This document shows, in pieces, positions 9,333 to 64,000 of a stretch of DNA of 64,000 nt. The notes under the pieces are model-generated. The model searched no databases. It had not been told where the DNA came from and saw only the letters and a program-made list of their open reading frames with translations. The first letter of the stretch is position 1. The number at the start of each line of letters is the position of its first letter. A program made the position numbers and the translations under genes. Source of the stretch: Allokutzneria sp. NRRL B-24872 (GTDB lineage Bacteria > Actinomycetota > Actinomycetes > Mycobacteriales > Pseudonocardiaceae); NCBI RefSeq assembly GCF_002155965.1, contig NZ_MUMH01000086.1, positions 1 through 64,000 of the forward strand. Reading direction: 5' to 3'.

Positions 9333-9369
9333 TTCCAGTTGGTACTGCCGGGGTACTCCGTCTTGCGGA

Positions 9370-9390: not shown

Positions 9391-9410
9391 CTTCGTGGCG
9401 AGGAGGACGG

Positions 9411-9731
9411 ATGGAGATCAGTCAGGTGCTCAAGGGGGTGCTCGACCTCGCGGTGCTCACCGCGCTGCGAGGGGAGGACCGCTACGGCTACGACGTCGTG
9501 CGCGGGTTGCGTGCGGCCGGGCTGGAGGCGATCGGGGACGCGTCGGTGTACGGCACGCTCCAGCGGCTGGCCAGGAACGGGCTGCTGACCTCCTACCTCA
9601 GCCCGAGCGAAACGGGTCCGCCTCGCAAGTACTACCGCCTGACCGACGAGGGCAGGGACCACCTTCGAGCGTCGACCAGCACCTGGCGCTCGTTCGTGGC
9701 GACCATGGACGAGCTGATGGGACCGGAATGA
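9411..9731 (+). CDS. PadR family transcriptional regulator
   Basis: A 106-residue PadR-type winged-helix protein. The N-terminal LKGVLDLAVLTALRGEDRYGY and the recognition-helix region SVYGTLQRLARNGLL are diagnostic. It is short-form PadR with one C-terminal dimerisation helix. The ATG at 9411 has GAGGAGG about 4-5 bases upstream and was preferred over in-frame upstream starts that lack an SD. The stop overlaps the next start (ATGA), coupling it to a HAAS-like membrane protein, a pairing common in Gram-positive bacteria. A palindrome 20 bases upstream suggests autorepression. Confidence 0.93.
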   Translation: MEISQVLKGVLDLAVLTALRGEDRYGYDVVRGLRAAGLEAIGDASVYGTLQRLARNGLLTSYLSPSETGPPRKYYRLTDEGRDHLRASTSTWRSFVATMDELMGPE

Positions 9732-11156: not shown

Positions 11157-11449
11157 TCTGCGACACAACCACGCATCGCTTCGTCCGGCGAGCCGATTTC
11201 GCGATGGTGGTGGCTCACCGTACAACAGCACGTACTGGGATTTTCCCTACCAGCCGAAGAAGGACAACCTCTGCGGCGCTGGCGCGGCCGGGCGTGCTGG
11301 GAGTGGCTGAAACTTCCTCGTGGATAGTGCTCCGCTATCGCTAGGGGTTCCCCTAGAACCATTCTGAGGCCGCGCTGAACTGCGGAAGCGGTGGTTAGTG
11401 TCGCACCGATTCTGCTTTGTTGTTCACGCGTGGTTGGGTGGAGCGCATT
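11157..11449. promoter_or_regulatory. Divergent intergenic region upstream of PKS-1
   Basis: This 293-base gap holds the PKS promoter region. It contains GATAG-N7-CTATC (11323-11339), immediately followed by the CTAGGGG/CCCCTAG palindrome (11341-11356), then a weak -10-like CATTCT near 11360. A degenerate GGGATTTTCCC lies at 11237-11247. Transcription would leave a leader of roughly 75 bases before the PKS-1 start. No small gene is supported here. Confidence 0.5.
11341..11356. promoter_or_regulatory. PimM-like (PAS-LuxR) operator candidate
   Basis: CTAGGGGTTCCCCTAG has two 7-base arms around TT. It matches the published PimM consensus CTVGGGAWWTCCCBAG at 14 of 16 positions, and the two differences are a symmetric A/T to G/C pair. 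PimM-type PAS-LuxR activators control polyene macrolide genes in Streptomyces. The site lies 94 bases before the PKS-1 start codon, overlapping where a -35 would be. No PAS-LuxR gene is inside the window. Confidence 0.6.
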
Positions 11450-14400
11450 ATGGGCGAGTCCGGAATCAACGGGGCTGTGGACCGACAGGACTCCGGTGAC
11501 GAGATCGCCGTCATCGGGCTCGCGTGTCGCCTGCCGGGGGCCTCCGGGCCCACCGCCTTCTGGCGCCTGCTCGCCGACGGCGTCGACGCCACGAGCGAGC
11601 CGCCCGCCGATCGCTGGGACGACTCCGCCCCGGCCCGGCGCGGCGGTTTCCTGGACCGGATCGACACCTTCGACGCGGGCTTCTTCGGCGTCTCACCTCG
11701 GGAAGCCGCCGCGATGGACCCGCAGCAGCGGCTCGTGCTCGAGCTGTGCTGGGAGGCGCTGGAGGACGCGCACCTGCGGCCGGAGTCGCTGCGCGGCACC
11801 CGCACGGCGGCCTTCGTCGGCGCGATCTGGGACGACTACGCCACCCTGGTGGGCCGTTCCGGTCGGGACGCGGTCTCCTCGCACACCGTCACCGGACTGC
11901 ACAGGAGCATTCTCGCGAATCGCGTTTCCTATTTCCTCGGACTCACCGGACCGAGTTTCACCGTCGATTCCGGGCAATCCTCTTCGCTGGTCTCGGTGCA
12001 CCTGGCCTGCGAGAGCCTGCGCAAGGGGGAATCGACCGTCGCGCTCGCCGGTGGGGTGAACCTGATCATCGCGCCGGAGAGCACGGAGCGGTCGGTGAAG
12101 TTCGGCGGCCTCTCCCCGGACGGCCGCTGTTTCACCTTCGACGAGCGCGCGAACGGCTACGCGCGCGGCGAGGGCGGTGGCGTCGTCGTGCTCAAGCCGC
12201 TCCCGGCCGCGCTGGCCGACGGCGACGACATCTACTGCGTGGTGCGCGGCGGCGCGGTCAACAACGACGGCGGTGGCGAAGGGCTCACCGTGCCGTCGCG
12301 GGTCGGCCAGGAAGAAGTCCTGTGGCTGGCCTACGAGCGCGCGCGGACCGACCCGGCCGAGGTCGGCTACGTGGAGCTGCACGGCACCGGCACCAGGGCC
12401 GGTGACCCGGTCGAGGCTGCGGCGCTGGGCGCGGTCCTCGGTGCGGCGCGCGACCCGGCCGATCCGCTGCTCGTGGGCTCGGTGAAGACCAACGTCGGCC
12501 ACCTCGAAGGCGCCGCGGGCATCACCGGATTCCTCAAGGTCGCGCTCGCGCTGCGCAACCGCGCGCTGCCGCCGAGCCTGAACTTCCGCACCCCGAACCC
12601 CGATATTCCTTTGGAGGAGTTGAACCTCCGCGTCCGCACGGAGTTCGGCGAGTGGGAGCGCGCGCGGGTCGCCGGCGTCAGCTCGTTCGGCATGGGCGGC
12701 ACGAACTGCCACCTCGTGCTCGCCGAGCCCCCGGCCGTGACGACCGAGGAGCCCCGCGATCCGGGCCTGGCTCCGGTGGCGCTGGCGTTGTCGGCCAAGA
12801 CCGCCTCGGCACTGCCCGGCCAGGCCGCCGCGCTGGCCTCGCACCTGGCCGATTTCCGTGAAGTCGATCTAGCGTTCTCGTTGGCGACCACGCGCACGGC
12901 CTTCCCGCACAGGGCGGTTGTGGTTGGCGCGGACCGCACGGCCCTGCTGCGCGGACTGCGTGAGCTGAGCGACGGCGGCGCGGACGCCGGGCTGATCACT
13001 GGGCGCGTGCAGCCCGCCGCGCCGGTCGCGTTCCTGTTCTCCGGGCAGGGCTCTCAGCGTGCGGGCATGGGACGCGAGCTGTATGAGACCTTCCCGGAGT
13101 TCGCCTCGGCACTCGACGAGATCTGTCTGGAACTCGATCCCAGGTTGCCGCGGCCGTTGCGCGAGGTCATGTTCGCCGAGGGGGATCAGCTCGACCAGAC
13201 GCTCTACACGCAGACCTCGCTGTTCGCGATCGAGGTCGCGCTGTTCCGGCTCCTGACGAGCTGGGGCGTCGCGCCGGACTACCTGATGGGGCACTCCGTC
13301 GGCGAGATCGCCGCCGCGCACGTCGCCGGGGCGCTCTCGCTGGCTGACGCGTGCGCGCTCGTCGCGGCTCGTGGCCAGCTCATGCAGGCGTTGCCGACGG
13401 GCGGCGCGATGGTCGCGGTCCAGGCCACCGAGGCCGAGGTCACGCCGCTGCTGACCGATGGCGTGGGGATCGCGGCGATCAACGGGCCCGCCTCGGTGGT
13501 GCTCTCGGGCTCGGAAGAGGCGGTGCTGGCGGTCGTCGCCCAGTTCGCGGACCGCAAGACCTCGCGGCTGAGGGTGTCGCACGCGTTCCACTCGCCGTTG
13601 ATGGAGCCGATGCTGGAGGAGTTCTGGCGCGTCGCCGAAGGACTGACCTTCTCGCCTCCCCAGCTGCCGATCGTGTCCAATGTGGATGGTGAGATCGTCT
13701 CTGCGTACTCGGCGGAGTACTGGGTGCGCCACGTGCGGCAGGCGGTTCGCTTCAACGACGGCGTCGGCGCGCTGGCTTCGCACGGTGTCCGGACCTTCGT
13801 GGAACTCGGTCCCGGCGGTGTGCTCACCGCGCTCGCGCGTGGTTGCGTCTCCGGTGAGGCGCTGTTCGTGCCTTCCTTGCGCGCCAAGCAACCCGAGGCA
13901 CACGCGGCGCTCTCCGCGCTGGCCTCCCTGCACGTTCACGGCATCGAGGTCGACCTGCCCGGCGTGTTCGCCTCACGCGGTGCGCGGCGGGTTCCGCTGC
14001 CGACGTATGCCTTCGAGCGGCGTAGGCACTGGCTTGACACGGCTTCCAGCACGGTCGTCTCGGCGGAGAGCGCGTCCAAGTTCCAGGACGCGGCCGCGGC
14101 GGAGAAGCTGGTGCGCGCGCACATCGCGGCCGTGCTCGGGCACTCGGACGCGGGCGAGGTCGACTCCGAGCTGACGTTCAAGGACCTCGGCTTCGACTCG
14201 CTGAGCGCCGTCGAGCTGCGGAACCGCTTGAGCGCGGCCACCGGGCTGAGTCTGCCAAGCGGACTGCTGTTCGACCACCCGACCCCCGACGCGCTGGCGC
14301 GCCACCTGCACGCATCGTCGCTCGGGCTTGAGTCCGATGTGGACACTGCCGTCGCGGCTGCGCCGGACGAGCCGATCGCGATCGTCGGGATGAGCTGCCG

Positions 14401-33658: not shown

Positions 33659-33722
33659 TCTTCCTGGGATCGCTCCTTGCCGTGCACGGGTCGGTATCCG
33701 TAACGGCGAGGGGCGGTTCTTG

Positions 33723-43961: not shown

Positions 43962-43987
43962 CCGCGCGGCCGAAGGAGCGGACCCAG

Positions 43988-49363: not shown

Positions 49364-49393
49364 CCCCCACCAGCTTCTCCGAGGACGGACGAC

Positions 49394-52300
49394 ATGGCGA
49401 ACGACGACAAGCTCAGGGACTACCTCAAGCGCGTCATGGTGGACCTGCGCCAGACCCGCAGGCAGCTGGACGAGCTGGAGTCCAAGGACACCGAGCCCAT
49501 CGCGATCGTCGGCATGGCCTGCCGCTACCCCGGCGGCGTCGCGTCCCCGGAGCAGCTGTGGGACCTGGTTTCTTCCGGGCGGGACGCGGTGTCGGGGTTC
49601 CCGGCCGACCGCGGCTGGGACCTGGAGGGGATCTACGACCCGGACCCCGACCGCGCCGGGAGGACCTACACCCGGCACGGTGGTTTCCTCGACGACGCGG
49701 CCGGGTTCGACCCCGCGTTCTTCGGGATCTCCCCGCGTGAAGCGCTCGCGATGGACCCGCAGCAGCGGCTGCTGTTGCAGACCTCGTGGGAGGCCATCGA
49801 GCGCGCGGGCATCGACCCGATGTCGGTGCGCGGCGGGCAGGCCGGCGTTTTCGTCGGTACCAACGGCCAGGACCACGCCAGCCTGCTGCGCTCCGGTGAC
49901 GAGGAGACCGAGGCGCACGCCCTCACCGCCAACACCGCCGCGGTGATCTCCGGTCGCATCGCCTACGCGCTGGGGCTCGAAGGTCCCGCGGTCACAGTGG
50001 ACACCGCGTGCTCGTCGTCGCTGGTGGCCATGCACCTCGCCGCGCACGCGCTGCGCCAGGGGGAGTGCTCGCTCGCGCTCGCCGGTGGTGCGACGATCAT
50101 GGCCACTCCCAACACGTTCATCGCGTTCAGCCGTCAGCGCGGGCTGTCATCGGACGGCCGTTGCCGCGCGTTCTCCGCTTCGGCGGACGGCACGGGCATG
50201 GCCGAGGGCGTCGGCGTGATCCTGTTGGAGCGCCTGTCCGACGCGCGTCGCAACGGTCACCCGGTGCTCGCGGTGATCCGGGGTTCGGCGGTGAACCAGG
50301 ACGGTGCGTCGAACGGCCTGACCGCGCCCAACGGACCCTCGCAGGAGCGCGTCATCCGGCAGGCGCTGGCCAACGCCCGGTTGACGCCGGAGCAGGTTGA
50401 CGTGGTGGAGGCGCACGGCACCGCCACCGCGCTGGGCGATCCGATCGAGGCGGACGCGCTGCTCGCGACCTACGGCCAGGATCACCCGGCTGACCGACCG
50501 CTGTGGCTCGGGTCGATCAAGTCCAACATCGGTCACTCGCAGGCCGCCGCCGGTGTGGCCGGTGTGATCAAGATGGTGATGGCGCTCCAGCACGGAGTGC
50601 TTCCGCGGACGCTGCACGTGGACGCGCCGTCACCGCACGTGGACTGGGCTTCGGGCAATGTCCGCCTGCTGACTTCGGCTGAGCCGTGGCCTGATGTGGA
50701 CCGGCCTCGACGTGCTGGTGTCTCGTCGTTCGGGGCGAGCGGAACCAACGCGCACGTGATCCTTGAGCAGGCCGTCGCGGAGCCCGCACCGGTGGCTTCG
50801 CCCGCCGCTGGGCCGGTGGCGTGGGTGCTGTCCGGCAAGTCCGACGCGGCTCTGCGCGCTCAGGCCGCGCGTCTTCTGTCCTTTGTGGACACGTCGGCTT
50901 CTCCGGTGGACGTCGCGCTCTCGCTGGCCACCACGCGGTCCGCTTGGGAGCGCCGCGCGGCGGTTGTGGGCTCGTCGGTGGAGGAGCTGACCGAGGGGTT
51001 GCGTGCCGTCGCCGCCGGTGAAGGTTCGGCGCTCGCGGTGGAGGGTGTTGCGCGCTCCGGCAAGGTCGGGTTCGTGTTCTCGGGTCAGGGTTCGCAGCGC
51101 CTGGGTATGGGTCAGGAGTTGTTTGACACGTATCCGGTGTTCGCGGCGGCCTTTACGGAGGTCGTCAACTACTTGACGGTGGACGTCAAGTCGCCTGATC
51201 TGGATCAGACCGGGAACGCCCAGCCTGCGTTGTTCGCTCTCGAAGTGGCGTTGTTCCGTTTGCTGGAGTCGTGGGGTGTGCGGCCGGATGTGGTGGCTGG
51301 GCATTCGATTGGTGAGATCGCGGCTGCTCACGTCGCTGGGGTCCTGTCGCTGAAGGACGCGGCGGCTCTGGTGGGTGCTCGGGCTCGGTTGATGCAGGCG
51401 CTCCCGGTTGGTGGGGCGATGGTGGCGGTGCAGGCTTCTGAAGCGGAGGTGCTGCCGCTGCTGACGGATGGCGTGGGGATCGCGGCGATCAACGGGCCGG
51501 AGTCCGTTGTGGTATCGGGTACCGAGGACGCGGTTCTGGCGGTTGTGGCGCAGTTCGCGGGACGCAAGACCTCGCGGCTCAAGGTGTCGCATGCGTTTCA
51601 TTCGCCGTTGATGGAGCCGATGCTGGCGGAGTTCGCCTCGGCTCTCTCCGATTTGACGTTCAACGAGCCGCAGATCCCGATCGTGTCGACGTTGACCGGG
51701 TCTTTGGTGGAACGCTGTTCCGTTGAGTACTGGGTTCGGCATGTGCGGGACTCGGTTCGCTTCGCGGATGGCGTTCGGGCCATGCGTGAGCAGGGGGTGA
51801 CGCGGTTCGTTGAGGTAGGACCGGGTGGTGTGCTCTCGGCGATGGTGCAGGGCTGCGTGGACGACGCGGTGGCCGTGCCGGTGCTGCGCGCCGAGCGGGC
51901 GGAGCCGCAGGCGATCGTCACCGCGCTCGCGCAGCTGCACACCCACGGCGTGCCCGTGGACTGGAGCGTCTTCGGCGGCGCCAAGGTCGATCTGCCGACC
52001 TACGCCTTCCAGAAGGAGCGCTTCTGGCTGGACAAGCCCGCGCCGGTGGTGGACGCCGCCGACGCCGAGTTCTGGGCGAGCGTCGAGCGCGAGGACGTCG
52101 CTTCGCTGGCGACCGCGCTCGGGCTGAGCGCGGACGAGCTGGACGCCGTGGTGCCGAAGCTGTCCGCATGGCGCAGGCAGCGGCACGAGGTGTCCACTGT
52201 GGACAGCTGGACCTACCGGATCGACTGGCAGCCGCTTCCCGAGATCAAGTCCGCCGCGCTCGCCGGGAACTGGGTCGTCGTGGCGGAGGAGGGCGACGAG

Positions 52301-55300
52301 CGGGCGGCGGCCGTCGCTGAAGGGCTCGGCGCTCGACTGGTCACGGACCTCGCCGAGCTGACCGAAGCGGACGGCATCCTCTCGTTCGGCTCCTTGACGG
52401 CTACCGTCAAGCTGCTCCGAGCTGGCGTTGAGGCGCCGCTGTGGTGCGCGACCCGGGGTGCGGTCCACGACAACCTGGACCCGGACCAGAGCATGGTGTG
52501 GGGCCTCGGCCGAGCCGTCGCGCTGGAGCACCCGCAGCGGTGGGGCGGTCTCGTCGACCTTGGTGAGAACGTCGACGTCGGACGCCTCGCGGCGGTGCTC
52601 AACCAGACGAGCGAAGACCAGGTCGTCATCCGCGACAACGGCGTCTTCGCCGCGCGCCTGAGCAGGGTTCAGCGCGGGATCACCGAGCCGTGGACGCCGC
52701 GCGGCACCGTCCTGATCACCGGCGGGACCGGTGCGCTGGCCGGGCACCTCGCGCGGTGGCTCGCGAAGGCGGGCGCCGAGCACCTGGTGCTGACCAGCCG
52801 TCGCGGGATGGAGGCGCCGGGGGCCGCCGAGCTGAAGGCCGAGCTCGAAGCGTCGACCGAGGTCACTGTGCTCGCGTGCGACATGGCCGACCGCGACGCC
52901 GTGCAGAACCTCCTTGCGGAGCACACCTTCACGTCCGTCTTCCACACTGCGGGCGTCGAGCAGTTCACGCCGTTCGACGAGCTGACCGACGAGGACTTCG
53001 CCCGCACGCTGGGCGCGAAGGTCACCGGCGCGGCGCTCTTGGACGAGCTGCTGGGCGAGCGGGAACTCGATGCCTTCGTGCTCTACTCCTCGATCGCCGC
53101 CACGTGGGGCAGCGGCCAGCAGACCGCCTACGCCGCCGCGAACGCCTACCTGGACGGACTCGCGCACCAGCGCCGGGCGCGTGGGCTGGCCGCGACTTCC
53201 GTGGCGTGGGGGCCGTGGGGCGGCGGCGGCATGCTCACCGACTCCGACGAAGCGCAGCTGAGCCGTCGTGGTGTGAGCGCCATGCGCCCCGACCTGGCCG
53301 TCTCCGCGCTGAGGCGGGCACTGGATTCCGGCGAGACCGCCATCGCGGTCGCCGACGTGGACTGGGGACGGTTCATCCCCCCGTTCACCCTGAACAGGCC
53401 GAGCGCGTTGCTCTCCGGCTTCACCGAGGCGGCTCCTGCTGAAGAGAACGCCGCGCCGTTGGTGGCGAAGCTGTCCGGACTGTCCACTGAGGACCAGATC
53501 GCGGCGCTGCTGGACATCGTGCGCGGGCAGGTCGCTGCCGTTCTCGGGCATCGTGGCGCCGATTCCGTCGAGACCGACCGCGCGTTCAAGGACCTCGGGT
53601 TCGACTCGCTGACCGCGATCGAGATGCGCACCAAGGTCGGCGCGGCGACCGGGCTGTCGCTGCCCGCCACGCTGATCTTCGACTACCCGAACCCGTTGGT
53701 GCTGGCCGAGTTCCTGCACGCCGAGCTGTTCGGCTCAGCTGCTGCCACCACCCGTGTGGTGACCGCGTCGGCGGACGAGCCGATCGCGATCGTGGCGATG
53801 AGCTGCCGCCTTCCCGGCGGCGTCGCCTCGCCGGAGGCCTTGTGGCAGCTGGTGTCCGAGGGGGTCGACGCGATCTCCGGGTTCCCGGGCGACCGGGGCT
53901 GGGACATCGACTCCCTGTACGACCCCGATCCCGAGAGGACTGGCACGACCTACGCGCGCGATGGCGGCTTCCTGGCCGACGCCACGGACTTCGACGCCGC
54001 GTTCTTCGGGATCTCCCCGCGCGAGGCGTTGGCGATGGACCCGCAGCAGCGGCTGTTGCTGGAGGCCTCGTGGGAGGTCTTCGAGCGCGCCGGTCTGACT
54101 CCCGCGCAGGTGAAGGGAACGCGGACCGGGGTTTACGCTGGGCTCGCGTTCCAGGGTTACGGCACTGAGTCCGGCACCAAGCCGGACGGTGTCGAGGGCC
54201 ACCTGCTCACCGGGGGCGCCTCGAGTGTCGCGTCCGGTCGCGTGGCTTACACCTTCGGGCTCGAAGGCCCTGCGGTCACGATCGACACGGCGTGCTCTTC
54301 GTCGCTGGTCGCGCTGCACCTCGCAGTGCAGTCGTTGCGCAGCGGCGAATCGGACATGGCGCTCGCCGGTGGTGTGTGCGTCATGGCCAGCCCCAACGTC
54401 TTCGTCGAGTTCAGCCGCCAGCGCGGGCTCTCGCCGGACGGCCGCTGCCGGGCGTTCTCGGCGGACGCGGACGGCACCGGCTGGTCCGAGGGCGTCGGCA
54501 TGATCCTCGTCGAGCGCCTTTCCGACGCGCAGCGCTTCGGCCACCCCGTGCTCGCCGTCGTGCGCGGCACTGCGATCAACCAGGACGGCGCGTCCAACGG
54601 GCTGACCGCGCCCAACGGTCCCGCGCAGCAGCGCGTGATTCGCGAGGCCCTCGCCGCCGCGGGGCTCGCACCGTCCGATGTGGACACTGTTGAGGCCCAC
54701 GGGACCGGCACCACGCTGGGTGATCCGATCGAGGCGCAGGCGCTGCTCGCGACCTACGGGCGGGACCGCGACCAGCCGCTGTGGGTGGGCTCGCTGAAGT
54801 CCAACATCGGCCACACGCAGGCCGCGGCCGGTGTCGCCGGTGTGATCAAGATGGTCATGGCCATGCGCAACGGCGTGCTGCCGCAGACGCTGCACGCGGG
54901 CGAGCCGACGCCGCACGTGGACTGGTCGGCGGGCAACGTGCGGCTGCTGACCGAATCCGTGCCGTGGCAGGTCGACCGACCGCGCCGCGCGGGCATCTCC
55001 TCCTTCGGCGCGAGCGGCACCAACGCCCACGCGATCATCGAGCAGGCTCCGCCCGGAGAAGCCCCGAGAACGACGCCGGAGCCGACCGCCCCGGTCCCGT
55101 GGGTGCTGTCCGCCAAGAGCGCCAAGGCTCTGCGCGCGCAGGCGGCCCGCTTGGCGGAGCACCTGACCGACCGGGACTGGAACCCAATTGACATCGGGTT
55201 CTCCCTCGATGGCCGCGCGGCGTTCGAGGAGCGCGCGGTCGTCGTCGGGACCGACCGCGAGTCACTGCTGGAGGGCTTGCAGGCGTTCACTGTCACCGGC

Positions 55301-58300
55301 ACGGCGACCACCAAGGGCAAGGCTGTCTTCGTCTTCCCCGGCCAGGGTTCGCAATGGCAGGGCATGGCCGTGGAGCTGCTGGAGACATCGCCGGTGTTCC
55401 GCGAGCGCATCGCCAAGTGCGAGCAGGCGTTGGAGCCGTTCGTCGACTGGTCGCTCACCGAGGTCCTTCGCGGCGTTGAAGGCGCTCCAACGACCGACCG
55501 CGTTGACGTCGTGCAGCCCGTGCTGTGGGCCGTGATGGTGTCGCTCGCGGAGCTGTGGCGGTCCTTCGGCGTCGAGCCCGCTGCGGTGATCGGCCATTCG
55601 CAGGGCGAGATCGCGGCGGCGGCCGTCTCCGGCGCACTGTCCCTTTCGGACGCTGCTCGCGTGGTTTCTCTGCGCAGCAAGGCTTTGCTGGAGCTGTCCG
55701 GGCTCGGCGGCATGGTGTCGGTCGCGCTGCCGCTTGCGGACACCACTGCGCTGATCAGCCAGTGGGACGGCCGGATCGGCATCGCGGCGGTCAACGGTCC
55801 TGCCACCACAGTGGTTTCCGGTGACGCCGACGCTCTGGACGAGCTGATGGTGGTCAGCGAGCAGCGTGACGCCCGTGCCCGCCGCGTCAACGTGGACTAC
55901 GCCTCGCACTCCGCGCACGTGGAGCGCATCGAACAGCGGCTGGCCGAAGTTCTCGCACCGATCGTGCCGCGTTCCGGGGGAGTGCCGTTCTACTCCACGG
56001 TGACCGGCGCGCTGATCGACACCGGCGAAGTGGACGCGGAGTACTGGTACCGCAACCTGCGCCAGACCGTGCTCATGCGCGAGGCGGTGGAGGCCGCGAT
56101 CACTGACGGGCACGACGTGTTCGTGGAGAGCAGCCCGCACCCCGTCATGATCATGGCACTTGAGGACACGATCGAGGCTTCCGAGGCGACCGCCGCCGTT
56201 GTGCCTTCGCTGCGCCGCGACCAGGGCGGACTTGACCGCTTCACGCTCTCGCTCGGGCAGGCGTACGTGCACGGCGTCGTCGTCGACTGGTCCTCGCTGC
56301 TGCCCGGCAAGCAGATCGAGCTGCCGACCTACGCCTTCCAGCGCGAGCGCTTCTGGTTCGAGCCTGCCTCGGCGACGGTCGCCGCTGCCCCGGTCGACGA
56401 GGTCGAGTCCGGGTTCTGGGAGTCGGTGGAGCGTGAAGACCTCGACTCCATCGCGGAGACCCTGGGCGTCGGTGCGGACGAGTCGCTGAGCGCGATCCTG
56501 CCGCGCCTGTCGGCCTGGCGGAGGTCCCGCCGCGAGCAGTCCGTTGTGGACAGTTGGCGTTACCGTGTCACGTGGAAGCCGCTGACGACAGCTCCGGCTG
56601 AGCTGTCGGGTACGTGGATCGTCGTGGCCACCGAGGAGACCGAGTGGGTTTCGGCGGTCCGCTCGGCGCTGTCCGGTGAGCTGGTGATCATCGACCTCGC
56701 CGCCGATCGCGCGGCGCTGGCGGCTCAGCTCCGCGAGCTCGGCCCGGTCAACGGCATCGTGTCGCTGCTGGCGGACGACGCCGGGGTCTCTGTTCAGCAC
56801 AAGGACTTGACGCAGGGCATCGCCTCCACCGTGCTGCTCGTGCAGGCCCTGGGTGACGCGGAGATCGACGCGCCGCTGTGGTGCGCGACCAGGACCGCTG
56901 TCGCCGTCGGGCGTTCCGAGCACGTCGAGGCGCCGGTCCAGTCGCAGCTCTGGGGCTTCGGCCGGGTCGTCGCGCTGGAGCACCCGCGCCGGTGGGGTGG
57001 CATGATCGACCTCCCCTCGAACATCGACGCGCGTGTCGCCGGGCGCCTGCTGGCTGTGCTCTCGCAGTCCTCCGAAGACCAGGTCGCGGTCCGGGCTTCG
57101 GGTGCGTTCGGCCGCAGGCTCGTTCGCGCGAAGTCCTCTTCGGACAGTCCTCAGTGGACTCCTCGGGGCACCGTGCTGATCACGGGTGGGACGGGTGCTC
57201 TTGGCGGGCACGTCGCGCGCTGGCTGGCTGAGGCGGGTGCTGAACACCTCGTCCTGACCAGCCGCCGTGGCATCGATGCTCCTGGAGCTGCCGAGCTGAG
57301 CGCGGAACTGGAAGCCTTGGGCGCCAACGTGACCGTCGCGGCCTGCGACGTTACCGACCGCGATTCCGTGGCTGCCGTGCTCGCCGCACACCCGGTGAAC
57401 GCGGTCGTGCACGCGGCGGGCATCGACAGCCACGCCATGATCGAGGACACCACGCTCGACGAGTTCGCGGACACGCTCTCTGCCAAGGTCGCGGGCGCGG
57501 TCCACTTGCACGAACTGTTGGGCGATCAGGAACTGGACGCGTTCATCCTGTTCTCGTCGGGCGCGGGCATCTGGGGAAGTGGCCGCCAGGGCGCGTACTC
57601 GGCGGGCAACGCCTTCATGGACGCTCTCGTGGAGCACCGGCGTTCGCGCGGGCTCGCCGGTCTGGCGATCTCGTGGGGCGCGTGGGCGGACGGCGGCATG
57701 GCCGCGCAGGGCGATGCCGAGGAGATCCTGCGTCGGCGCGGTGTCCACACGATGCCCGCCGCGATGGCGCTTTCCGCGCTGCGCCAGGCGTTGTCGGACG
57801 GTGAGACCACGCTGACGGTCGCGGCGTTCGACTGGGCGCTGTTCGCGCCGAGGTTCACCGTCAACCGTGCGAGCGCGCTGCTCGACGAGCTGCCCGAAGT
57901 CCGCCGCGCGCTGGAGTCCGGCGACGAGGAGACCACTGCTGCTGGACCGACTCCCTTGGTGGCCAAGCTTTCCGCTCTCACGGCGGGGGAGCAGGACCGG
58001 CTGCTCGTCGACCTCGTCCGCACGCAGGCCGCGACCGTGCTCGGGCACAACGGCGCCACCGAGGTGGAGGCCGGGCGCGCGTTCAAGGAGCTGGGCTTCG
58101 ACTCGCTGACCGCCGTTGAGCTGCGCAACAAGCTCAACGCGGCGACCGGGCTCAAGCTGCCGACAACGGCGGTGTTCGACTACCCCAACGCGCTCGCTTT
58201 GGCGTCGTTCCTGCGGTCGGAGCTGAGCGGGACGAGGGAAGTCGCTGCCGCGTCGACGGTGACTGTGACGGACGAGCCGATCGCGATCGTCGGCATGGCC

Positions 58301-61300
58301 TGCCGTTTCCCCGGCGGTGCGAACTCGCCCGAGGAGCTGTGGCAGCTGCTGGAGTCCGGCACCGACGTGATCTCGCTGTGGCCGGACGACCGCGGCTGGG
58401 ACACGGAGGGCATGTACGACCCGGAGCCGGGCAAGCCGGGCAAGACCTACGCCCGCGACGGCGGATTCCTCTACGACGCAGCAGGTTTCGATGCCGGGCT
58501 GTTCGGGATCTCCCCGCGTGAGGCCTTGGCGATGGACCCGCAGCAGCGGTTGCTGTTGGAGTCCTCGTGGGAGGTCTTCGAGCGCGCGGGCATCGACCCG
58601 ATGTCTTTGAAGGGCAGCCAAACCGGCGTGTTCGTCGGCATGGCCTACCAGGGGTACGGCGCGGGGCTCGCTGAGGTTCCCGAGGGTGTGGAGGGCCACT
58701 TGCTGACCGGTGGCGCGTCGAGCGTCGTGTCCGGGCGCGTGGCTTACACGTTCGGGCTCGAAGGCCCGGCGGTCACCGTGGACACCGCGTGCTCGTCGTC
58801 GCTGGTCGCGCTGCACTTGGCGATGCAGTCGCTGCGCAGTGGTGAGAGCACGATGGCCATCGCGGGTGGTGTGAACGTGATGGCGGGCCTCACCGGGTTC
58901 GTGGAGTTCAGCCGCCAGCGCGGTCTGTCGCCGGATGGTCGCTGCAAGGCGTTTGCGGAGAGCGCGGACGGCACGGGCTGGGCGGACGGCGTCGGCCTCG
59001 TTCTGGTGGAACGGCTTTCCGACGCTCAGCGCAACGGGCACAAGGTGCTCGCTGTGGTACGCGGTTCCGCGGTGAACCAGGATGGCGCGTCGAACGGGTT
59101 GACCGCGCCGAATGGTCCTGCTCAGCAGCGGGTGATCCGGCAGGCGTTGGCCTCGGCTGGGCTCGTTCCGTCCGACGTGGACGCTGTCGAGGCGCACGGA
59201 ACCGGCACCAAGCTCGGTGACCCCATTGAGGCGCAGGCACTTCTGGCGACCTACGGCCAAGAGCGGCAGGCGCCGCTGTGGTTGGGCACGCTCAAGTCGA
59301 ACATCGGCCACTCGCAGGCAGCGGCCGGTGTGGCTGGCGTCATCAAGATGGTGATGGCGCTGCGCAACGACCTGCTGCCGAAGACCTTGCACGTCGATGA
59401 GCCGACGTCCCATGTGGACTGGTCCACCGGCGACGTGCGGCTGTTGACCGAGGCTCAACCGTGGCCGTCGAACGACCGTCCTCGCCGCGCTGGTATCTCG
59501 TCCTTCGGGGTATCCGGTACCAACGCGCATGTGATCGTGGAGGAGTACACGTGCGATGCTGTTTCCGCGCGTGTGGGCCGACCGGGTGCGGGTGTCCCGC
59601 TAGACACTGTGGAGGAAGCTCCGGCGGTGCTTCCGGTCGCACCGGCTTCTGCTCCGGCAGAGGTCGCGTGGGTGTTGTCGGGAAAGACGTCAGCCGCCGT
59701 TCGGGATCAGGCTTCGCGGTTGCTGTCCATTGTGGATGATGTTCCGTCGCTGGATGTCGCTCGTGTTCTTGCGACCGGGCGCGCGGCGTTGGAGCACCGG
59801 GCCGCTGTGGTCGGCTCGGATCGGGACTCGCTGGTCGAGGGCCTGCATGCGCTGGTGGCGGGAACGCCGAACTCGGGTGTCACGGTGGGGCGCGCGGACA
59901 ACGCGGGCAACGTGGCGTTCCTGTTCTCCGGACAGGGTTCGCAGCGCGCTGGCATGGGCTGCGAGCTGTACGAAGCCTTCCCGGCCTTCGCTGCGGCGTT
60001 CGACGACGCGTGCGCGCACGTGGACGTGCACGGAGACCGGCCGCTGCGCGACGTTGTCTTCGGGGACTCGTCGGACCTGGGCCGGACCGAGTTCACGCAG
60101 CCCGCGCTGTTCGCGCTTGAAGTGGCGTTGTTCCGGTTGCTGGAGTCGTGGGGTGTGCGGCCGGACGTCGTGACTGGGCACTCGATCGGTGAGATCGCGG
60201 CGGCGCACGTCGCCGGAGCGCTGTCGCTGGCCGACGCGGCGAAGCTGGTGTCCGCTCGCGCCCAGCTCATGCAGGCGCTGCCCGCCGGCGGAGCGATGGT
60301 GGCGATCCAGGCCACCGAGGCGGAGGTCCTGCCGCACCTCGACGACGCCGTGAGCATCGCGGCGATCAACGGGCCGGAGTCCGTTGTGGTATCGGGTGCC
60401 GAGGACGCGGTGCTGGCGGTCGCGGCGCAGTTCACGGACCGCAAGACCTCGCGGCTGAAGGTGTCGCACGCGTTCCACTCGCCGCTGATGGAGCCCATGC
60501 TGGCGGAGTTCGAGAAGGCTCTGGACGGGATCGAGTTCCAGGTTCCGGGGATTCCGATCGTGTCGGCGTCGACCGGGTCTGTGGTGGAACGCTATTCCGT
60601 TGCGTACTGGGTTCGGCACGTCCGGGACGCTGTTCGGTTCGCGGAGGCACTCGACACCGTTCACGCCCAGGGCGTCAACCGGTTCGTCGAGATCGGTCCG
60701 GGCGGGGTGCTCACCGCGATGGCGCAGGGCTGCCTCGCCGACGTCGTCACGGTCGCGCTGCTGCGCTCGGATCGGCCGGAGACGCAGTCGATCACGACCG
60801 CTGTCGCTCAGCTCCACGCGCACGGTGTCGCGGTGGACTGGTCGGCGGTGTATCCCGGTGCGGGTGTGGTCGATCTGCCGACCTACCCGTTCCAGCACGA
60901 GCGCTACTGGCTGATGCCGTCCGCGCCCGTCGTGGTGTCGGAGGACGGCGGGTTCTGGGACACCGTGGAGCAGGCCGACGTCACCTCGCTCGCCGAGACC
61001 TTGGACCTGCCCGCCGAGCAGCTTGAGGCGGTCCTGCCGAGGTTGTCCGCCTGGCGCAGGCAGCGGCGGGACGAGTCCACTGTGGACAACTGGACCTATC
61101 GCGTGGACTGGAAGCCCCTGCGTGGGCTCAACGCCCAGCCGTACGGGACGTGGATCGTGCTCGCCACCGAAGAGACCGAGTGGACGACCGCGGTCACGGA
61201 TGGCCTCGCCGCTCGCGGCCTGAGGGTCTACCCGATCGCCGTTGAGACCACCGCTGACCGCAGCGCCATCACTCGCCAGCTCGTGCGTGCGAGCGAAGAG

Positions 61301-64000
61301 ACGCTGGTTGCGGGCGTGGTGTCGCTGCTCGGCGTCGACGAGCGACCGCATGCGGCGCTGTCCGTGGGCGCCGCGCTGTCGGTGCTGCTCGTGCAGGCGT
61401 TGGGCGACGCGGACATTCAGGCTCCACTGTGGACGGTCACGGCCGAAGCGATGCCTGTTGGCGGTGTGGTGCCGAGTGCGGTCCAGAACGCGATCTGGGG
61501 CTTCGGCCGCGTGGCCGCGCTGGAGCACTCGCGTCGGTGGGGCGGCCTCATCGACCTTCCGGGTGTGCTCAGCGAGGGCGTGCTCGGGCACCTCGTCGGC
61601 GTGCTCGGCCAGTCCGCTGAGGACCAGGTGGTGATCCGCGAGAACGGCGTCCACGGGCGGAGGCTCGCGCGACTGTCCACTAAGGATGGTTCACAGTGGA
61701 CTCCTCGCGGCACTGTGCTGATCACCGGCGGCACTGGGGCCCTTGGTGGGCACGTTGGTCGTTGGCTGGCGAGCGCGGGGGCCGAGCACCTGGTGCTGAC
61801 CAGCCGCCGCGGGCTGGACGCGCCGGGCGCTGCTGAGCTGAAGACCGAGTTGGAGGCTCTGGGCGCGCGGGTGACTGTGGCCGCGTGCGATGTGGCTGAT
61901 CGTGACGCGGTGGCTGCGCTGCTGGCTGAGCACCCGGTGAACGCTGTGGTGCACACGGCGGGTGTGGACCAGCTGGAGCCCCTGGCGGACATGGACTTGG
62001 AGTCCTTCGCCGACGTGCTCTCCGCGAAGGTCGGCGGCGCCGTGCACCTGCACGAGCTCGCCGGAGACCTGGACGCGTTCGTGCTCTTCTCCTCCATCGC
62101 GGGGGTGTGGGGCGGCGGTCACCAGGCTGCTTACGCGGCGGCCAACGCGTTCCTGGACGGGCTCGCCGAGCGGCGGCGCGCACAGGGGCTCGCGGCGACC
62201 GCCGTGGCGTGGGGACCGTGGGACGACGGAGGCATGGCCGAGGGTGAGGAGGCCGGTCAGCGGCTCAGCCGTCGTGGCCTGGTCCGGATGCGCGCCGCGC
62301 TGGCGGTGTCCGCGATGCGCCGGGTGATCGGTGTGCCTGCCGCGACGGTGGTCGACGTCGACTGGGAGCGGTTCATCGCGCCCTTCACGGTCAGCCGCTC
62401 GAGCGCGCTGCTCAGCGACCTCGTCTCGGTCAAGCAGGCTGAGCCGGAGCTGGTCTCGTCGCCGCTCGTGAACCTCACCGAGGCCGAGCTCGTCGAGCTG
62501 GTCCGGACGCACGCCTCGGCGGTGCTGGGGTATGCGGACAGCGGCGCCGTTGAGGCGGGCCGGGCGTTCAAGGACCTCGGTTTCGACTCGCTGACCGCCG
62601 TCGAGCTGCGCAACCAGCTCACCGCCGCGACCGGGCTGACGCTGCCGCCGACGCTGGTCTTCGACTACCCCAACGCGCTCGCTCTCGCCGCGCACCTGCG
62701 CTCGGAGCTGAGCGGGACTCGGGAAGTCACGTCCGCGTCGGCGGTGACCGTGACGGACGAGCCGATCGCGATCGTCGGCATGGCCTGTCGCTACCCGGGC
62801 GGGGTCGACTCGCCCGAAGACCTGTGGAACCTGGTCGCAAGTGGTACTGACGGCATCTCGGAGTTCCCGGAGGACCGTGGTTGGGACGTCGCGAACCTCT
62901 ACGACTCGAACCCGGACAGCTCCGGCAAGTCCTACGTGAAGCACGGCGGTTTCCGGTACGACGCGGCCGAGTTCGACGCGGCGTTCTTCGGGATCTCTCC
63001 GCGCGAGGCCACGGTGATGGACCCGCAGCAACGACTGCTGCTGGAGACCGCGTGGGAGACCTTCGAGCGCGCGGGCCTCGACCCGGAGATGGTGCGCGGC
63101 ACGCAGACCGGCGTGTTCGTCGGCTCGGGCTACCAGGACTACGCGGCCCAGGCTTTCAGTGCGGCCGATGACTCTGAAGGTTTCTTCGGCACCGGAAACA
63201 CCGCGAGCATCATGTCGGGCCGCATCGCCTACACCTTCGGGCTCGAAGGCCCGGCGGTCACCATCGACACCGCGTGCTCGTCTTCGCTGGTCGCGCTGCA
63301 CTGGGCGGTTCAGGCGCTGCGCAACGGCGAGTGCTCGATGGCGCTGGCCGGCGGTGTGATGATCATGGCGACGCCGCGGGCGTTCGTGGAGTTCAGCCGC
63401 CAGCGCGGGCTCGCGGAGGACGGCCGGTGCAAGGCCTTCGCCGCGGCGGCTGACGGCACCGGCTGGTCCGAGGGCATCGGCATGCTGCTGGTGGAGCGCC
63501 TTTCCGACGCCCAGCGCAACGGCCACAAGGTGCTCGCCGTGGTACGCGGTTCCGCGGTGAACCAGGATGGCGCGTCGAACGGGCTGACTGCGCCGAACGG
63601 CCCGGCTCAGCAGCGGGTGATCCGGCAGGCTCTCGCCTCGGCTGGGCTCGCTCCGTCCGACGTGGACGCTGTGGAGGCGCACGGCACGGGCACGCGGCTC
63701 GGTGATCCGATCGAGGCGCAGGCGGTTCTCGCGACGTACGGGCAGGACCGCGCGCAGCCGTTGTGGCTCGGGTCGCTGAAGTCCAACATCGGCCACACAC
63801 AGGCGGCTGCCGGTGTCGGTGGCGTGATCAAGATGGTCATGGCGATGCGCAACGGGGTGCTGCCGAAGACCCTGCACATCGACGCGCCGACGCCGAACGT
63901 GGACTGGTCGGCTGGAGCTGTGTCGCTGCTGACCGAGGCCGTTCCGTGGGAGTCCGGCCGGCCGCGTCGTGCTGGTATCTCGTCCTTCGGGGTATCCGGT
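49394..64000 (+). CDS. Type I polyketide synthase, modules 8-10 and start of 11 (PKS-4, cut by window end)
   Basis: The first 4869 residues of a further PKS, open in frame to the right edge. After the docking helix ([20 protein letters not shown]) come three KS-AT-KR-ACP modules and the KS of a fourth. Each of modules 8-10 reduces to a hydroxyl only, so the enzyme switches from polyene to polyol building. AT specificities are malonyl, methylmalonyl, malonyl. All three KRs lack the LDD motif and carry the Trp eight residues before the catalytic Tyr, with Gln at -3, which predicts A1-type (L-hydroxyl) products. The ATG at 49394 is preceded by GAGGACGGAC and lies 30 bases after PKS-3. Chain release and tailoring are not visible. 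Confidence 0.97.
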   Translation, partial: MANDDKLRDYLKRVMVDLRQTRRQLDELESKDTEPIAIVGMACRYPGGVASPEQLWDLVSSGRDAVSGFPADRGWDLEGIYDPDPDRAGRTYTRHGGFLDDAAGFDPAFFGISPREALAMDPQQRLLLQTSWEAIERAGIDPMSVRGGQAGVFVGTNGQDHASLLRSGDEETEAHALTANTAAVISGRIAYALGLEGPAVTVDTACSSSLVAMHLAAHALRQGECSLALAGGATIMATPNTFIAFSRQRGLSSDGRCRAFSASADGTGMAEGVGVILLERLSDARRNGHPVLAVIRGSAVNQDGASNGLTAPNGPSQERVIRQALANARLTPEQVDVVEAHGTATALGDPIEADALLATYGQDHPADRPLWLGSIKSNIGHSQAAAGVAGVIKMVMALQHGVLPRTLHVDAPSPHVDWASGNVRLLTSAEPWPDVDRPRRAGVSSFGASGTNAHVILEQAVAEPAPVASPAAGPVAWVLSGKSDAALRAQAARLLSFVDTSASPVDVALSLATTRSAWERRAAVVGSSVEELTEGLRAVAAGEGSALAVEGVARSGKVGFVFSGQGSQRLGMGQELFDTYPVFAAAFTEVVNYLTVDVKSPDLDQTGNAQPALFALEVALFRLLESWGVRPDVVAGHSIGEIAAAHVAGVLSLKDAAALVGARARLMQALPVGGAMVAVQASEAEVLPLLTDGVGIAAINGPESVVVSGTEDAVLAVVAQFAGRKTSRLKVSHAFHSPLMEPMLAEFASALSDLTFNEPQIPIVSTLTGSLVERCSVEYWVRHVRDSVRFADGVRAMREQGVTRFVEVGPGGVLSAMVQGCVDDAVAVPVLRAERAEPQAIVTALAQLHTHGVPVDWSVFGGAKVDLPTYAFQKERFWLDKPAPVVDAADAEFWASVEREDVASLATALGLSADELDAVVPKLSAWRRQRHEVSTVDSWTYRIDWQPLPEIKSAALAGNWVVVAEEGDERAAAVAEGLGARLVTDLAELTEADGILSFGSLTATVKLLRAGVEAPLWCATRGAVHDNLDPDQSMVWGLGRAVALEHPQRWGGLVDLGENVDVGRLAAVLNQTSEDQVVIRDNGVFAARLSRVQRGITEPWTPRGTVLITGGTGALAGHLARWLAKAGAEHLVLTSRRGMEAPGAAELKAELEASTEVTVLACDMADRDAVQNLLAEHTFTSVFHTAGVEQFTPFDELTDEDFARTLGAKVTGAALLDELLGERELDAFVLYSSIAATWGSGQQTAYAAANAYLDGLAHQRRARGLAATSVAWGPWGGGGMLTDSDEAQLSRRGVSAMRPDLAVSALRRALDSGETAIAVADVDWGRFIPPFTLNRPSALLSGFTEAAPAEENAAPLVAKLSGLSTEDQIAALLDIVRGQVAAVLGHRGADSVETDRAFKDLGFDSLTAIEMRTKVGAATGLSLPATLIFDYPNPLVLAEFLHAELFGSAAATTRVVTASADEPIAIVAMSCRLPGGVASPEALWQLVSEGVDAISGFPGDRGWDIDSLYDPDPERTGTTYARDGGFLADATDFDAAFFGISPREALAMDPQQRLLLEASWEVFERAGLTPAQVKGTRTGVYAGLAFQGYGTESGTKPDGVEGHLLTGGASSVASGRVAYTFGLEGPAVTIDTACSSSLVALHLAVQSLRSGESDMALAGGVCVMASPNVFVEFSRQRGLSPDGRCRAFSADADGTGWSEGVGMILVERLSDAQRFGHPVLAVVRGTAINQDGASNGLTAPNGPAQQRVIREALAAAGLAPSDVDTVEAHGTGTTLGDPIEAQALLATYGRDRDQPLWVGSLKSNIGHTQAAAGVAGVIKMVMAMRNGVLPQTLHAGEPTPHVDWSAGNVRLLTESVPWQVDRPRRAGISSFGASGTNAHAIIEQAPPGEAPRTTPEPTAPVPWVLSAKSAKALRAQAARLAEHLTDRDWNPIDIGFSLDGRAAFEERAVVVGTDRESLLEGLQAFTVTGTATTKGKAVFVFPGQGSQWQGMAVELLETSPVFRERIAKCEQALEPFVDWSLTEVLRGVEGAPTTDRVDVVQPVLWAVMVSLAELWRSFGVEPAAVIGHSQGEIAAAAVSGALSLSDAARVVSLRSKALLELSGLGGMVSVALPLADTTALISQWDGRIGIAAVNGPATTVVSGDADALDELMVVSEQRDARARRVNVDYASHSAHVERIEQRLAEVLAPIVPRSGGVPFYSTVTGALIDTGEVDAEYWYRNLRQTVLMREAVEAAITDGHDVFVESSPHPVMIMALEDTIEASEATAAVVPSLRRDQGGLDRFTLSLGQAYVHGVVVDWSSLLPGKQIELPTYAFQRERFWFEPASATVAAAPVDEVESGFWESVEREDLDSIAETLGVGADESLSAILPRLSAWRRSRREQSVVDSWRYRVTWKPLTTAPAELSGTWIVVATEETEWVSAVRSALSGELVIIDLAADRAALAAQLRELGPVNGIVSLLADDAGVSVQHKDLTQGIASTVLLVQALGDAEIDAPLWCATRTAVAVGRSEHVEAPVQSQLWGFGRVVALEHPRRWGGMIDLPSNIDARVAGRLLAVLSQSSEDQVAVRASGAFGRRLVRAKSSSDSPQWTPRGTVLITGGTGALGGHVARWLAEAGAEHLVLTSRRGIDAPGAAELSAELEALGANVTVAACDVTDRDSVAAVLAAHPVNAVVHAAGIDSHAMIEDTTLDEFADTLSAKVAGAVHLHELLGDQELDAFILFSSGAGIWGSGRQGAYSAGNAFMDALVEHRRSRGLAGLAISWGAWADGGMAAQGDAEEILRRRGVHTMPAAMALSALRQALSDGETTLTVAAFDWALFAPRFTVNRASALLDELPEVRRALESGDEETTAAGPTPLVAKLSALTAGEQDRLLVDLVRTQAATVLGHNGATEVEAGRAFKELGFDSLTAVELRNKLNAATGLKLPTTAVFDYPNALALASFLRSELSGTREVAAASTVTVTDEPIAIVGMACRFPGGANSPEELWQLLESGTDVISLWPDDRGWDTEGMYDPEPGKPGKTYARDGGFLYDAAGFDAGLFGISPREALAMDPQQRLLLESSWEVFERAGIDPMSLKGSQTGVFVGMAYQGYGAGLAEVPEGVEGHLLTGGASSVVSGRVAYTFGLEGPAVTVDTACSSSLVALHLAMQSLRSGESTMAIAGGVNVMAGLTGFVEFSRQRGLSPDGRCKAFAESADGTGWADGVGLVLVERLSDAQRNGHKVLAVVRGSAVNQDGASNGLTAPNGPAQQRVIRQALASAGLVPSDVDAVEAHGTGTKLGDPIEAQALLATYGQERQAPLWLGTLKSNIGHSQAAAGVAGVIKMVMALRNDLLPKTLHVDEPTSHVDWSTGDVRLLTEAQPWPSNDRPRRAGISSFGVSGTNAHVIVEEYTCDAVSARVGRPGAGVPLDTVEEAPAVLPVAPASAPAEVAWVLSGKTSAAVRDQASRLLSIVDDVPSLDVARVLATGRAALEHRAAVVGSDRDSLVEGLHALVAGTPNSGVTVGRADNAGNVAFLFSGQGSQRAGMGCELYEAFPAFAAAFDDACAHVDVHGDRPLRDVVFGDSSDLGRTEFTQPALFALEVALFRLLESWGVRPDVVTGHSIGEIAAAHVAGALSLADAAKLVSARAQLMQALPAGGAMVAIQATEAEVLPHLDDAVSIAAINGPESVVVSGAEDAVLAVAAQFTDRKTSRLKVSHAFHSPLMEPMLAEFEKALDGIEFQVPGIPIVSASTGSVVERYSVAYWVRHVRDAVRFAEALDTVHAQGVNRFVEIGPGGVLTAMAQGCLADVVTVALLRSDRPETQSITTAVAQLHAHGVAVDWSAVYPGAGVVDLPTYPFQHERYWLMPSAPVVVSEDGGFWDTVEQADVTSLAETLDLPAEQLEAVLPRLSAWRRQRRDESTVDNWTYRVDWKPLRGLNAQPYGTWIVLATEETEWTTAVTDGLAARGLRVYPIAVETTADRSAITRQLVRASEETLVAGVVSLLGVDERPHAALSVGAALSVLLVQALGDADIQAPLWTVTAEAMPVGGVVPSAVQNAIWGFGRVAALEHSRRWGGLIDLPGVLSEGVLGHLVGVLGQSAEDQVVIRENGVHGRRLARLSTKDGSQWTPRGTVLITGGTGALGGHVGRWLASAGAEHLVLTSRRGLDAPGAAELKTELEALGARVTVAACDVADRDAVAALLAEHPVNAVVHTAGVDQLEPLADMDLESFADVLSAKVGGAVHLHELAGDLDAFVLFSSIAGVWGGGHQAAYAAANAFLDGLAERRRAQGLAATAVAWGPWDDGGMAEGEEAGQRLSRRGLVRMRAALAVSAMRRVIGVPAATVVDVDWERFIAPFTVSRSSALLSDLVSVKQAEPELVSSPLVNLTEAELVELVRTHASAVLGYADSGAVEAGRAFKDLGFDSLTAVELRNQLTAATGLTLPPTLVFDYPNALALAAHLRSELSGTREVTSASAVTVTDEPIAIVGMACRYPGGVDSPEDLWNLVASGTDGISEFPEDRGWDVANLYDSNPDSSGKSYVKHGGFRYDAAEFDAAFFGISPREATVMDPQQRLLLETAWETFERAGLDPEMVRGTQTGVFVGSGYQDYAAQAFSAADDSEGFFGTGNTASIMSGRIAYTFGLEGPAVTIDTACSSSLVALHWAVQALRNGECSMALAGGVMIMATPRAFVEFSRQRGLAEDGRCKAFAAAADGTGWSEGIGMLLVERLSDAQRNGHKVLAVVRGSAVNQDGASNGLTAPNGPAQQRVIRQALASAGLAPSDVDAVEAHGTGTRLGDPIEAQAVLATYGQDRAQPLWLGSLKSNIGHTQAAAGVGGVIKMVMAMRNGVLPKTLHIDAPTPNVDWSAGAVSLLTEAVPWESGRPRRAGISSFGVSG
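49493..53735 (+). other. PKS-4 module 8: KS-AT(malonyl)-KR(A-type)-ACP
   Basis: KS Cys206, with an atypical EAHGTATALGDPIEA where the other extension KS domains have GTGT. AT GHSIGE and HAFH (malonyl). No DH. KR (catalytic part about 52705-53260) has GGTGALAG, no LDD (AGVEQFTPFDE), Trp in ATWGSG and YAAAN. ACP Ser1405. First hydroxyl after the polyene. Confidence 0.92.
53774..58230 (+). other. PKS-4 module 9: KS-AT(methylmalonyl)-KR(A-type)-ACP
   Basis: KS Cys1634. AT GHSQGE and YASH from Tyr2169 (methylmalonyl). KR (about 57160-57720) GGTGALGG, no LDD (AGIDSHAMIED), Trp in GIWGSG, YSAGN. ACP Ser2904. Adds CH(CH3) and a hydroxyl. Confidence 0.93.
58271..62730 (+). other. PKS-4 module 10: KS-AT(malonyl)-KR(A-type)-ACP
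   Basis: KS Cys3133. AT HAFH (malonyl), of full-length type with RPLRDVVF, unlike the shortened malonyl ATs elsewhere. KR (about 61705-62240) GGTGALGG, no LDD (AGVDQLEPLAD), Trp in GVWGGG, YAAAN. ACP Ser4399. The KS-AT linker carries the repeat shared with module 4. Confidence 0.93.
62756..64000 (+). other. PKS-4 module 11: KS (partial module at window end)
   Basis: KS with Cys4628 (DTACSSS), EAHGTGT and the [11 protein letters not shown] histidine motif; it is nearly complete when the window ends in SSFGVSG. The AT choice and reductive domains of module 11 are outside the window. Confidence 0.93.

Follow-up and report, generated by a model that had tools for sequence, protein, structure and literature searches.

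We are fairly confident that the polyketide synthase (PKS) locus in this window (the whole stretch of DNA analysed, 64,000 bases) is a filipin-family modular PKS that has been altered to make a hexaene. As read from its domains, it is a new assembly-line version of a known kind of antibiotic, akin to that for the antifungal filipin, marked by an apparently intact dehydratase (DH) in module 7, methylmalonyl-like ATs in modules 7 and 9 (AT7 and AT9) and an extra DH-ER-KR module. The best reading of the product is a C2-alkylated, apparently non-glycosylated, 30-membered dimethyl-hexaene macrolactone; glycosylation by genes elsewhere in the genome is possible. The window comprises the first 64,000 bases of contig C461 (83,766 bases), within a draft genome of 8.19 Mb in 475 contigs that is 95% complete. 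The PKS consists of five genes on the + strand, spanning 11,450 to 83,106, four of which start inside the window and the fourth of which crosses its end:

10,434 to 11,231, - strand: SAM-dependent methyltransferase, divergent from pks1; putative cluster member only
11,450 to 33,658, + strand: pks1, KSQ-AT-ACP loading module, module 1 (KR) and modules 2 to 4 (DH-KR); all ATs malonyl-type; KS0 to KS4 best match KS0 to KS4 of three Streptomyces filipin-type PKSs
33,720 to 43,961, + strand: pks2, module 5 (malonyl-type AT, DH-KR) and module 6 (methylmalonyl-like AT, YAPH, DH-KR)
43,988 to 49,363, + strand: pks3, module 7 alone (methylmalonyl-like AT, YASH, DH-KR)
46,742 to 47,533, + strand: DH7, with the DH motifs including MPFAW kept; the orthologous domain is damaged in 10 of the 10 relatives read
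49,394 to 64,000 in the window and to 67,354 on the contig, + strand: pks4, modules 8 (KR), 9 (methylmalonyl-like, KR), 10 (KR) and 11 (KR)
67,402 to 83,106, + strand, beyond the window: pks5, modules 12 to 14 and the thioesterase (TE)

Motif searches read the loading module as KSQ(VDSGQSS)-AT(HAFH)-ACP, module 1 as KS-AT-KR-ACP and modules 2 to 5 as KS-AT-DH-KR-ACP, with malonyl-type ATs in modules 1 to 5, and modules 6 and 7 as KS-AT-DH-KR-ACP with methylmalonyl-like ATs (GHSQG with YAPH or YASH). Modules 8 and 10 are malonyl-type and module 9 is methylmalonyl-like, each with a KR, and the window ends within module 11. The original prediction had asked for the downstream sequence; this was fetched, and modules 11 to 14, the TE, the CCR and the tailoring genes have now been read. 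Module 11 is malonyl-type with a KR, module 12 malonyl-type with DH-ER-KR, module 13 malonyl-type with a KR, and module 14 is a GHSQG/GAGH AT-KR-ACP-TE followed by the CCR gene, giving in total a KSQ loading module, 14 extension modules and a terminal TE. The domains were read with models built from the cluster's own modules and with Pfam on the loading module, modules 5 to 8, module 12 and the TE. Pfam matched the KS, AT, KR and DH families in these proteins at E <= 9e-25, ACP at <= 1e-9 and TE at 1e-20, and confirmed the presence of KR8. AT substrate specificities are motif-based readings throughout. An LDD motif (B type) is present in the KRs of modules 1 to 7 and 12 and missing in those of modules 8 to 11, 13 and 14, and the NADPH motif of KR8 is GGTGALA, where other KRs have GGTGALG or similar. 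The predicted order of KSQ loading, a KR-only module 1, six DH-KR modules and then KR-only modules was thus borne out by motifs and Pfam, with the chain as far as ACP10 as originally described.

For pks1, the start at 11,450 (MGESG...), which is also the first position of the original prediction, is likelier than the longest-ORF start at 11,417. The - strand opposite the PKS genes holds antisense ORFs of up to 1496 aa, which are probably an effect of G+C-rich codons. Among the malonyl-type ATs (C461 15875-16723, 25076-25924, 30086-30934, 64310-65158 and 74974-75822), the three pairs tested share identical runs of 44-79 bases, a pattern that suggests gene conversion. Several other large modular PKS loci occur in the same genome, which has 101 ketosynthase matches (contigs C468, C390, C430, C431, C460, C379, C429 and C168). 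Upstream of pks1, window positions 6194-9731 encode a membrane-fusion-like protein (weak match), a MacB-like ABC ATPase and permease, and a short reading frame that by eye resembles a PadR regulator; these genes possibly form an exporter, with a candidate link to the cluster.

Relatives were sought through the TE. Of 297 genomes sampled from its bacterial family, 134 gave a TE match at E 1e-30, but besides the query genome only four (G142, G239, G178 and G274) held a close TE relative, at 50-54% identity. A pattern scan with the TE alone gave 35 stretches that fitted the pattern, none of which was confirmed; with a five-sequence TE alignment as the query, 16 loci were confirmed out of 110 pattern matches in species-representative genomes. 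These were 12 Streptomyces-type loci (64-68% identity, including S. filipinensis), Saccharothrix yanglingensis (54%), Actinokineospora bangkokensis at two places (53%) and Saccharopolyspora elongata (51%), and the last-module AT was GHSQG with GAGH or AAGH in 15 of them, the 16th being a TE fragment alone. An order-wide sample of 397 genomes searched at E 1e-65 returned the Allokutzneria TE alone, but G142, G239 and G178 would have cleared this threshold and so must lie outside the sample; the result is no sign of absence. Locus G178/L066 is that of the thailandin producer, its gene sizes agreeing with the table in PMC6273641. A second thailandin TE end in A. bangkokensis (L065, beside L066) lies on another scaffold and is perhaps an assembly duplicate. 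In Saccharopolyspora elongata (L067, G274:C98), the related TE and GAGH AT are encoded by a PKS gene close to long ORFs that give several carrier-like hits; this cluster is of another kind. Locus L052 is titled Streptosporangium nondiastaticum; its cluster P450 groups inside Streptomyces, and the species name may be wrong.

The original prediction could not match the start of the chain to a known polyketide. It does have a match in the plan of filipin and thailandin, where one KR module follows the acetyl starter and the polyene begins two carbons into the chain and bears a C-methyl at its end. The locus has the KSQ-AT-ACP loading module, KR-only module 1 and DH-KR modules 2 to 6 with a methylmalonyl-type AT at module 6 that characterize these clusters, as well as a last module with an alkylmalonyl-type AT and TE and a CCR directly downstream (here split over two contigs). 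The narrower pentaene features, 13 extension modules and a damaged DH7, were not found. In S. filipinensis, where the last two modules, the CCR, the P450, the cholesterol oxidase and module 7 were read, the likeness extends to the GAGH AT and TE of the last two modules, the CCR (FilB), the CYP105P-type P450 (FilC), the cholesterol oxidase (FilG) and module 7, and the acetyl KSQ start of filipin clusters is alike as judged from the five completely read relatives. The S. avermitilis filipin PKS is described in the filipin literature as having 14 modules on five proteins; compared with the filipin systems of S. filipinensis and S. avermitilis, the present locus has 15 modules including loading, intact DH7 motifs, the methylmalonyl-like AT7 and AT9, and the extra DH-ER-KR set. 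The thailandin (tha) cluster of A. bangkokensis shares the start, the polyene block, the CCR, a CYP105P-like P450 and LuxR regulators, but its product is a pentaene, and it is described as having 13 extension modules, an inactive DH7, a butylmalonyl AT (AAGH) and, in thailandin A, rhamnosylation (PMC6273641). The filipin-type clusters of S. klenkii, S. hiroshimensis and S. griseofuscus likewise have five PKS genes, split as loading plus four, two, one and four modules up to the fourth gene; in contrast to the Allokutzneria cluster, their last gene has two modules (three here), DH7 lacks GYxYGPxF and all ATs are malonyl-type except 6 and 13.

The five relatives with a fully read PKS (S. griseofuscus, G300; S. 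klenkii, G297; S. hiroshimensis, G298; G239; and G178) each have 13 extension modules, against 14 here. By single-domain BLAST, KS0 to KS6 and KS8 to KS11 best match the same-numbered KS of all three Streptomyces clusters, KS7 pairs with KS7 in two of the three, KR7 pairs with KR7 in all three (72-74% identity), and module 14 pairs with their module 13 by KS, AT and ACP. AT14 is 72-73% identical to AT13 of these Streptomyces clusters, compared with 55-58% to AT13 of G239 and G178 and 45-52% to methylmalonyl-type ATs. Pairing within the last gene is mixed: KS12 is nearest to KS12 or KS11 of the relatives, KS13 is nearest to other positions, and KR13 is nearest to KR12 by score in one Streptomyces cluster, with an identity that is highest or tied among the top hits in all three (77-83%). 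Because of this mixture, the surplus block that brought in the DH-ER-KR set is placed, as its probable position, between KS12 and KR13; module 13 was equated with the relatives' module 12 mainly by position and less by similarity. Nothing else in the genome comes close to ER12 (best 64%). AT7 and AT9 are methylmalonyl-like where their counterparts in the relatives are malonyl-type, and neither shares more than 61% with another AT of the cluster. The malonyl-type ATs, the polyene-block KRs and the ACPs did not pair in a cleanly diagonal fashion and were given no weight.

The CCR gene starts nine bases after pks5 and runs off the end of the contig; the end of contig C26 (14,536 bases) holds the remaining C-terminal part, with a 21-base overlap between the contigs and an uninterrupted reading frame. 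The join rests on this overlap and one gene, in a short-read-like assembly with repeats. In the same direction, C26 carries a P450, a GMC cholesterol-oxidase-like gene, an AMP-binding acyl ligase and three AAA-LuxR (LAL) regulators. The two CCR halves are 77-82% identical to the FilB counterparts of Streptomyces-type relatives and 67-72% to those of the Saccharothrix and Actinokineospora types, and the P450 is 77-79% identical to the Streptomyces-type FilC counterparts and 66-68% to the other two types. Against PDB chains 5it1, 3aba, 3e5j and 3e5l the P450 scores 672-681 bits, and against 3abb 259 bits; we take these chains to be CYP105P2, CYP105P1 and CYP105D6. The enzyme is CYP105P-like, a family feature of filipin and thailandin PKS clusters (for the tailoring, see PMC4527110). 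The cholesterol-oxidase-like gene product is 69-73% identical over most of its length to the FilG counterparts of four Streptomyces relatives. The three LAL genes occur in the same order, at 36-43% identity, in S. klenkii and S. hiroshimensis, where they are likewise followed by the cholesterol oxidase. The locus departs from filipin clusters in its acyl ligase, in its three LAL regulators, and in that no orthologue of FilD (CYP105D6-type, C1' hydroxylase) was found in the 95%-complete genome (best match 45%). The six C26 proteins scanned with Pfam did not include a PAS-LuxR regulator (FilF). Neither a glycosyltransferase nor a cyclase was found among seven C26 proteins scanned. The acyl ligase (C26, 9159-10904) is FAAL-like, below curated cut-offs, and may feed the C2 side-chain precursor; neither it nor the SAM-dependent methyltransferase beside pks1 had a counterpart in the relatives' sequences searched at E 1e-20.

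Whether the chain has six or five double bonds turns on DH7, which was read in ten relatives (seven Streptomyces-type, G239, G142 and G178). The Allokutzneria DH7 keeps all four DH motifs, with a single Leu to Met change in MPFAW. In contrast, a deletion of some 15 residues has removed GYxYGPxF from all seven Streptomyces-type DH7s, four of which have in addition lost the catalytic His or Asp. In G239 and G142 the internal deletion covering this motif is larger and the Gly of HxxxG is changed; the second half of the domain is present. The DH7 of G178 shows the motif changes published for thailandin. In a 40-row DH tree, the Allokutzneria DH7 is sister to the seven Streptomyces-type DH7s (100/99), while thailandin DH7 joins weakly (80/46). 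An AlphaFold model from a six-row alignment of the DHs of this window has a complete DH fold (pLDDT 82) that is nearest over its length to the borrelidin, rifamycin and erythromycin DHs; such a fold by itself is no proof of activity. Together, these observations support an active DH7. The acetyl start, the hexaene and the two C-methyls at the polyene end, as originally proposed, follow from the domains, the sixth double bond being favored by the intact DH7 and by a B-type KR7, in comparison with the relatives.

An inactive DH7 in spite of its motifs would give instead a pentaene with a C17 hydroxyl and a C16 methyl, of about C39H66O10 (hexyl chain, one P450 hydroxyl). We regard this as unlikely, although the domain is damaged in every relative read, thailandin DH7 is reported to be inactive (PMC6273641), and none of the six polyene-block DHs diverges more than the Allokutzneria DH7. 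At 71 positions conserved in the relatives' active DHs it departs from the consensus 13 times, compared with 1-8 for DH2 to DH6, 14 for DH12 and 12-37 for the damaged DH7s, the 12 belonging to the inactive thailandin domain; this count by itself fails to separate working from dead domains, so the argument is carried by the motifs. Besides the kept motifs and the predicted fold, branch lengths speak against a dead domain: the DH7 tip (0.34) lies within the range of the cluster's own DH2 to DH6 (0.27-0.46), whereas the stem leading to the dead Streptomyces-type group measures 0.41, and the active DHs in the three Streptomyces clusters have values of 0.07-0.17. As a test for relaxed selection, the dN/dS of dead DH7 between S. 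klenkii and S. hiroshimensis (0.374) differs only weakly from that of DH2 to DH6 (0.16-0.34), and the value for DH7 between Allokutzneria and S. hiroshimensis (0.358) is the same as for DH4 and is uninformative. Gene conversion was considered as the source of the intact DH7 and found no support, with a longest identical run with the six other DHs of the cluster of 20 bases, against 12-21 bases in four other DH pairs.

Collinearity is itself an assumption here, and the KR8 motif change shows that single steps may differ; modules could be skipped or iterated, or the chain could end as a linear acid or a pericyclic product. The original prediction had left the fate of the chain between a polyene macrolactone and a pericyclic cyclization. 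The TE, which groups with filipin-family TEs, the CCR and the FilC-type P450 point to the former, and filipin-type clusters have matching CCR, P450 and cholesterol-oxidase-like genes; nothing was found in support of the latter, a cyclase being absent from the C26 proteins scanned. A chain that is not simply collinear and lactonized is accordingly very improbable in our estimate. Slightly less probable again is a module order distorted by the assembly of repeated modules, even though the identical runs in the three AT pairs tested are of the repeat kind that misleads short-read assembly of a genome in 475 contigs; the KS domains line up in order with those of the fully read Streptomyces clusters, and AT7 and AT9 lack a close copy in the cluster, as does ER12 in the genome.

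Under the preferred reading, a filipin-family PKS making a hexaene macrolactone, the loading module would decarboxylate malonyl to acetyl and module 1 would leave the hydroxyl (C29) that later closes the lactone. Modules 2 to 7 would then build a C16-C27 hexaene with methyls at C16 and C18, the full length following because DH7 appears still to work. Modules 8 to 14 would add the polyol, with a C12 methyl, a C7 methylene from module 12 and a C2 alkyl from CCR-made alkylmalonyl-CoA, after which the TE would close the 30-membered ring and the P450 would hydroxylate C28, the counterpart of filipin C26. From the carboxyl, the predicted layout is an alkyl at C2; hydroxyls at C3, C5, C9, C11, C13 and C15; a methylene at C7; methyls at C12, C16 and C18; a P450-hydroxylated CH2 at C28; the lactone oxygen at C29; and a methyl at C30. 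C15 could bear a ketone instead, given the altered KR8 motif; the KR8 of thailandin is thought to be inactive (PMC6273641). The C2 chain is probably hexyl, AT14 and the CCR being most like the S. filipinensis type, though its length is not fixed by the sequence; an ethylmalonyl reading of module 14, based solely on its GAGH motif, was rejected in favor of a probably longer chain, since S. filipinensis shares that motif. For a hexyl chain and a single hydroxylation, the computed formula is C39H64O9 ([M+H]+ 677.462). The corresponding computed [M+H]+ values are 661.467 for hexyl without the hydroxyl, 649.431 for butyl and 621.400 for ethyl with it, 675.447 for the C15 ketone and 695.473 for the pentaene. 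The dermostatins and bahamaolides, which are also hexaene macrolides, have larger rings. Hexaenes are described in PMC9740855 as the smallest and most under-characterized polyene group, and those named there are the candihexins, cryptocidin, grecomycin and the linear linearmycin, with few cyclic; they have the chromophore in common, and their formulas as given there do not fit the predicted C39H64O8/O9. The same paper gives UV maxima near 345/362/384 nm for a putative hexaene or methylhexaene. A filipin-type hexaene cluster or a matching product was not found in the open-licence papers searched.

The distribution of damaged DH7s allows a tentative proposal, which we hold to be possible rather than probable: that filipin-type pentaenes descend from a hexaene-making ancestor, with DH7 lost repeatedly, and that Allokutzneria keeps the ancestral active state while adding changes of its own in AT7 and AT9 and the extra module. 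Separate losses would have occurred in Streptomyces (the short GYxYGPxF deletion), the Saccharothrix type (the larger deletion with changed HxxxG) and Actinokineospora (motif changes), about three in all, as the motifs are intact in Allokutzneria and broken in the three other lineages. The ancestor is suggested by these lineage-specific lesions, by the absence of a conversion tract in the Allokutzneria DH7, by its grouping with the Streptomyces DH7s together with a DH2 clade of the same composition (100/98), and by the P450 tree, which with other P450s of these loci as the outgroup reads (Actinokineospora, (Saccharothrix type, (Allokutzneria, Streptomyces))), its inner forks (91/88 and 94/90) falling just below the mark for firm support. 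Streptomyces and the Saccharothrix type both deleted the same motif, to a different extent, which makes a shared loss a little less unlikely. If the root lay on the Allokutzneria branch, one DH7 loss would suffice, but the DH2 clade argues against this placement; the ancestor may also have had a DH7 that looked intact but was silent.

Such a relative of filipin, with its sixth double bond, additional methyls and larger ring, would illustrate how one dehydratase domain sets polyene length and perhaps sterol selectivity, and the family offers a natural comparison of DH7 on and off.
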